From assembly GCA_029782145.1 (NCBI GenBank), contig JAKOVH010000026.1, positions 1 through 64,000 of the forward strand: a stretch of DNA of 64,000 nucleotides, in the 5' to 3' direction. The notes beneath the pieces are model-generated. The model was not told the DNA's origin, ran no database searches, and saw only the letters and a program-made list of their open reading frames with translations. Shown here piece after piece: positions 19,588 through 19,701 of the stretch (its first letter is position 1; every line of letters starts with the position of its first letter). Source of the stretch: Actinomycetes bacterium (GTDB taxonomy: Bacteria; Actinomycetota; Acidimicrobiia; Acidimicrobiales; Acidimicrobilacustridaceae). The translations under genes and the position numbers were made by a program.

Positions 19588-19701
19588 ACCTGTGCCCATT
19601 TCGGTCCCTGCCCCTCTCCCTACCTGTGCCCATTTCGGTCCCTGCCCCTCTCCCAACCTGTGCCCATTTCGGTCCCTGGGAGGACAGAAACGGGCACAGG
19701 T
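19588..19701. repeat. intergenic palindrome family B, three tandem units ending in a long hairpin
   Basis: A 34-bp unit beginning ACCTGTGCCCATTTCGGTCC is repeated head to tail at 19588, 19622 and 19656. The first two copies end in a pyrimidine tract (TGCCCCTCTCCC) and differ only in the last base. The third departs into an inverted copy: ACCTGTGCCCATTTC (19656-19670) pairs with 19687-19701 at 14 of 15 positions, with an inner GTCC/GGAC stem. The same core occurs as a perfect palindrome at 50753-50800. The block lies between the NnrD stop and the GyrI-like gene. Confidence 0.85.

Follow-up and report, generated by a model that had tools for sequence, protein, structure and literature searches.

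Hairpin families and the AbiEi-Vsr-like nuclease genes that they bracket in an acidimicrobial genome

A tandem block ending in a hairpin

A tandem 34-bp repeat that ends in a hairpin, lying between nnrD and a GyrI-like gene, raises two questions: how such a block is formed, and what spreads its hairpin to other sites of the genome. The block lies in a stretch of 64,000 nucleotides, hereafter the window. An earlier note, made from these letters alone, had described it as three 34-bp units that look able to expand locally. The tandem repeat with its terminal hairpin was confirmed by the sequence itself, by TRF (period 34, match 95%) and by folding against shuffled sequences, and the intergenic position was upheld. 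Units ACCTGTGCCCATTTCGGTCCCTGCCCCTCTCCC(T/A) start at 19588 and 19622, and the third, from 19656, turns into an inverted copy ending at 19703. The count of three holds for these unit starts but not for hairpins: each unit consists of the 5' half-arm (22 nt) of a hairpin family designated B plus 12 bp of flank, so that the block is two half-units in tandem followed by one intact family-B hairpin, CAACCTGTGCCCATTTCGGTCCCTGGGAGGACAGAAACGGGCACAGGTTC, its only complete copy. The core had also been noted as a near-perfect cruciform near 50753-50800, and a complete, near-perfect hairpin was found there. The family-B features of the window are as follows.

19588-19621, plus strand: half-unit 1, family-B 5' arm with 12 bp of flank, 34 bp (sequence, TRF)
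19622-19655, plus strand: half-unit 2, tandem copy of unit 1, 34 bp (sequence, TRF)
19654-19703, no strand assigned: intact 50-bp hairpin of family B, with nnrD and the GyrI-like gene on either side (sequence, covariance model, fold)
50752-50801, no strand assigned: the other intact hairpin of family B, flanked by genes for a luciferase-like monooxygenase and an ABC transporter (sequence, covariance model, fold)

Both hairpins folded better as single strands than all 200 dinucleotide shuffles (z -6.1 for 19650-19707 and -8.9 for 50748-50805), and an Rfam search with the hairpin returned nothing over the gathering score, only sub-threshold chance matches. Directly downstream of the block, a GC-rich 16/33-bp tandem repeat (GGGGGCGGTGCGGTC) occupies 19711-19788 and extends into the nnrD 3' end.

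The last base differs between the 34-bp units, which argues against a simple assembly stutter. The block looks like the product of local slippage at the hairpin, and the note was right to regard the repeat as locally expandable. A mirror case at C26:20550 has half-unit duplications built of 3' half-arms, and slippage from the hairpin apex would account for both. The block is read as a by-product of the hairpin, a local expansion and not the route by which the family spreads. The only available genome of the same genus (G001) lacks the GyrI-nnrD segment that holds the block.

The repeat is not unique. A genome-wide count over the assembly (4.24 Mb, 34 contigs, 98% complete) gave 56 occurrences of the 10-mer ACCTGTGCCC, against 3 for the reversed control, and a covariance model (R2) built from 27 family-B copies recovered about 35 full hairpins. 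All 27 copies in its alignment are 50 bp long, and their arms covary, with 29 cells changed on both sides compared with 13.6 in shuffles and a covariation score of 0.151 compared with 0.092. Only three of 60 relatives had family-B matches, all weak; G001 lacks the family save for one weak match, and when 84,980 species were scanned for its outline, only unrelated hairpins came up. Family B is practically private to this genome.

Further hairpin families and their turnover

Family B is one of at least five hairpin families in the genome, the others having been found by a scan of 883 kb of it.

Family A1: CGTTCTGGTGGAGATCTACG-n12-rc
Family A2: CGTTCTGGTGGAGGTCTGCCCCC...
Family C: AAGCTGGTTCTGATCGTTCCGG-n3-rc
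Family D: CGCTGGCTCGATCCATCACCT-catg-rc

The stems of the five families differ, and their ends (CTGG-like) and total length (about 46-50 bp) are alike. The common plan is one of fixed length, with the outer 10-12 bp or so conserved and an inner stem that is variable yet self-complementary. Three members lie in the window.

6719-6766, no strand assigned: family-A hairpin (TTCTGGTGGAG...CTCCACCAGAA); the orthologous site in G001 has a diverged hairpin
39542-39589, no strand assigned: family-C hairpin (AGCTGGTTC...GGAACCACCTTGG)
44371-44426, no strand assigned: family-A1 hairpin with perfect arms of 22 bp

Another hairpin in the window, at 36747-36790 (CGGCTAACTGCGTTAGCC...), falls outside families A-D and has a related one (GGCTAAC...GTTAGCC) at the orthologous G001 site (L200:2541-2582). 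In a Halieaceae MAG (L120, L121, L123, L131), a 52-bp palindrome without relation to these families, GGGCCCTGTGCCCGAAGGGTGCGCCATGGCGCACCCTCCGGGCACAGGGCCC, was seen several times.

The density of near-perfect hairpins in intergenic DNA was about 19 times that in coding DNA, in a sample partly picked around family-B copies. With gaps classed by a simple in-house gene caller, 65 family members were intergenic and four more overlapped called genes; of the 65, convergent gaps held 26, tandem gaps 30 and divergent gaps 9. Convergent gaps thus hold 40% of the intergenic hairpins compared with 15% of intergenic bases, of which tandem gaps make up 54% and divergent gaps 31%. Many genomes of the order are strongly enriched in the outline TTCTGG-N24-50-CCAGAA, with 74 versus 3 in this genome, 99 versus 0 in G103, 52 versus 3 in G049 and 49 versus 6 in G041. 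The members listed for G049 and G041 have stems of their own, and a length of 48 bp is found in nearly all of those from G049 and in most of those from G041. About 12 bp is a frequent spacing of adjacent copies in relatives, as it is in the arrays of this genome; a simple model of 62-bp tandem duplication was tried for the arrays and fits only some of them.

Comparison with G001 indicates that hairpins are gained and lost on the scale of species, because three sites are hairpin-less there (A at L109, B at L115, C at L074) and two are altered, L113 having a hairpin with an unrelated stem and 6719 the diverged one. At L109, about 14 bp on either side of the hairpin differ as well. Same-genus alignments, in which most inserts are runs of N, yielded neither a clean target-site duplication nor an exact insertion junction. 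In an orthologous pair from two species of one genus (L337, L355), the outer 12 bp, TCCCGAGTACAT, are common, and the inner stem has been swapped with pairing kept.

Nuclease genes bracketed by hairpins

A RAYT-type Y1 transposase had been predicted as the partner enzyme. The search for a partner proved worthwhile, but the enzyme was of another kind. No Y1 transposase (PF01797) was found in the 98%-complete assembly, with control genomes giving matches in the same search, nor in most hairpin-rich relatives (none in G041, G049, G043 or G053). Instead, a comparison of hairpin neighbours revealed two paralogous genes for an AbiEi-like/Vsr-like nuclease, one bracketed by A1 hairpins and one by B hairpins; the other recurrent neighbours were mostly large generic families. 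Each of the five families has its own bracketed nuclease in this genome (A1, L298; A2, L319; B, L310, at C21:330038-330946; C, L389; D, L320), a one-to-one pairing in which three of the five partners, those of A2, C and D, were found after the rule had been noticed in A1 and B. The A2 and D partners came from a family search in 17 genomes followed by inspection of flanks, and the C partner from a profile search.

Across 57 complete nuclease loci from 17 genomes of the order, chosen partly by hairpin counts, 16 had matching hairpins (at least 12 of 14 bases alike) on both sides. Of 432 ordinary genes similar in size, 1 was flanked in this way (odds ratio 168, p 2e-15). Bracketing was seen in 1 of 328 control genes from hairpin-rich DNA and in 0 of 73 genes neighbouring the nucleases. 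The 3' hairpin adjoins the nuclease stop codon, mostly within -43 to +24 bp, and the 5' hairpin mostly lies 30-110 bp ahead of the start. The arrangement recurs in a phylum-wide sample, with nine of 43 loci bracketed, some of them from the same order or genome (including L389 and L364). Of 149 genomes sampled from the phylum, 70 carry the nuclease family. In hairpin-rich genomes, about two thirds of the nucleases have no two-sided matching hairpins under the thresholds applied, and many of those in the phylum sample show none; the association may be confined to some lineages of the family.

Nuclease loci were syntenic within two pairs from the same genus, so that movement of the nuclease unit itself was not observed, and a plasmid search with the nuclease gave no match. 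Of two genomes of one genus (G164 and G093, compared at L296 and L329), one has a longer nuclease frame and the other a copy with a 519-bp gap, suggesting nuclease decay at a syntenic site. This genome has a sixth nuclease (L321:2577-3500; C11:155.1 kb) whose 3' hairpin has GAGGCAGA-type arms and resembles a lone hairpin at L105:6531-6571, possibly a sixth family. A further paralogue (L390:2134-3039; C27:92633-93538) has a hairpin on one side only and, with a nuclease fragment at L072:947-1369, possibly represents decaying systems.

Pfam placed an AbiEi_4 domain at the N terminus of the nuclease and the Vsr-like REase_MTES_1575/DUF559 domain at its C terminus, and PADLOC matched the N-terminal half to AbiEi models. 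In an AlphaFold model (pLDDT 90.8), residues 1-188 resembled the AbiEi antitoxin fold (6y8q, Z 12.5) and residues 196-300 the catalytic domain of I-Bth0305I (Z 13.9), followed by 3hrl and Vsr (Vsr Z 11.9). Four acidic residues (E199, D231, E242 and D258) were invariant across 23 copies with 24-57% identity to the B nuclease; the protein is predicted to have a Vsr/EDxHD catalytic fold with its conserved acidic residues in place. Nuclease similarity was correlated with hairpin-end similarity, weakly (Mantel r 0.24, p 0.0014; 31 loci, hand-picked ends). The A1 and B nucleases are 57% identical, and their hairpins share little besides the CGTTCT-type end of some B copies. On the simplest reading of these sequences, the outer arms would be recognised by sequence and the inside by shape or symmetry.

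A proposed system, its rivals and known relatives

We consider these elements to be, more probably than not, REP-like, non-coding mobile hairpins, each family with a cognate Vsr-type nuclease bracketed by that family's hairpins. Cleavage and mobilisation by the nuclease we infer from this arrangement. The AbiEi half would bind the palindrome ends as a dimer and the nuclease half would cut at or near the palindrome. Repair of the cut by folded-back or template-switched copying could then perfect, locally duplicate and disperse the hairpins, and the 34-bp block would record copying that halted near the hairpin apex and resumed about 34 bp upstream. One point against this scheme is that Vsr-type enzymes are hydrolytic nucleases not known to perform strand transfer, which leaves the copying step unspecified.

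The palindromes might instead be operators of the AbiEi-like domain, for autoregulation or a dispersed regulon, with the nuclease half serving defence or another function and mobilising nothing. The confirmed AbiEi half and the hairpin often found 30-110 bp upstream of the start would suit such a role, which we nevertheless regard as unlikely, as it leaves unexplained the second hairpin at the stop codon, the dozens of copies scattered over intergenic DNA with an excess in convergent gaps, the species-private amplification and the exchange of inner stems with pairing kept. Less plausible again is that the hairpins are bidirectional terminators or mRNA 3'-end stabilisers, selected and homogenised in each genome, and that nuclease genes merely carry strong ones. 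Strong folding and the excess in convergent gaps agree with this, but no T-tract directly follows either family-B copy of the window on either strand, nine hairpins lie between divergent genes, two-sided matching hairpins are specific to nuclease genes, and three sites are hairpin-less in the same-genus genome. That the hairpins multiply passively, through replication slippage and template switching and without a dedicated enzyme, is very improbable as a full account: the half-unit duplications (window, C26:20550) and the tandem arrays with spacers of about 12 bp do resemble slippage, which covers local arrays but not dispersal, fixed length, conserved ends or bracketed nucleases. That a RAYT moved the hairpins and was since lost or left unassembled, the nuclease link being incidental, is hardly credible, even though the hairpins broadly resemble the REPs on either side of RAYT genes (PMC2817692), given the absence of PF01797 from this genome and from four hairpin-rich relatives, ends without a GTAG/CGTC tag, and the nuclease pairing in all five families.

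Hairpins with cognate nucleases, the reading we prefer, could belong to something broader: tentatively, and with slightly less than even confidence, we suggest that mobile hairpins propagated by dedicated AbiEi-Vsr fusion nucleases are widespread in actinobacteria, with a chemistry unlike transposase-driven REP spread. If true, this would give a role to DUF559/MTES_1575, a large and poorly characterised nuclease family, suggest a function for the abundant DUF559/AbiEi fusion genes, and predict a set of nucleases specific for palindromes, with targets that can be deduced from the genome. Nothing relevant linking DUF559, AbiEi or Vsr to palindromes was found among open-licence papers, the literature against which the novelty of the link was judged. 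REP-like palindromes without any transposase are known in the CGTC superfamily (PMC3733652) and are a standing puzzle; the families described here have a one-to-one non-transposase partner, and the question of what moves orphan hairpins becomes directly testable.

Among known systems, the closest likeness is to REP/RAYT (TnpA-REP, Y1 HUH transposase; Nunvar 2010, PMC2817692; GTAG/CGTC superfamilies, PMC3733652), which shares the many dispersed intergenic palindromes, several species-private families per genome, local arrays, a partner gene flanked by its own palindromes and co-divergence of enzyme and palindrome. Unlike REPs, the present elements are 48-50 bp long with both ends paired (GAACCTG/CGTTCTG) and no unpaired GTAG/CGTC tag, and the partner is not a Y1 transposase but a fusion of an AbiEi-like domain with a Vsr/EDxHD nuclease. 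Like MITEs, they are non-autonomous inverted-repeat elements amplified within one genome; unlike MITEs, nearly the entire element is one palindrome, and the bracketed nuclease genes were all that was seen where a MITE would have a parent insertion sequence sharing its ends. With AbiEi antitoxins of the type IV toxin-antitoxin system AbiE the protein shares the fold of residues 1-188, to which it adds a nuclease domain that AbiEi lacks. With EDxHD (Vsr-like) homing endonucleases such as I-Bth0305I (PMC3943268) it shares the catalytic fold; it differs from them in being encoded by a free-standing gene outside any intron or intein, in its AbiEi-type DNA-binding half and in its tie to dispersed palindromes. 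For I-Bth0305I, dimerisation on a target nearly 60 bp long has been reported (PMC3943268), and a target of that order, by analogy, would suit a palindrome of 48-50 bp.
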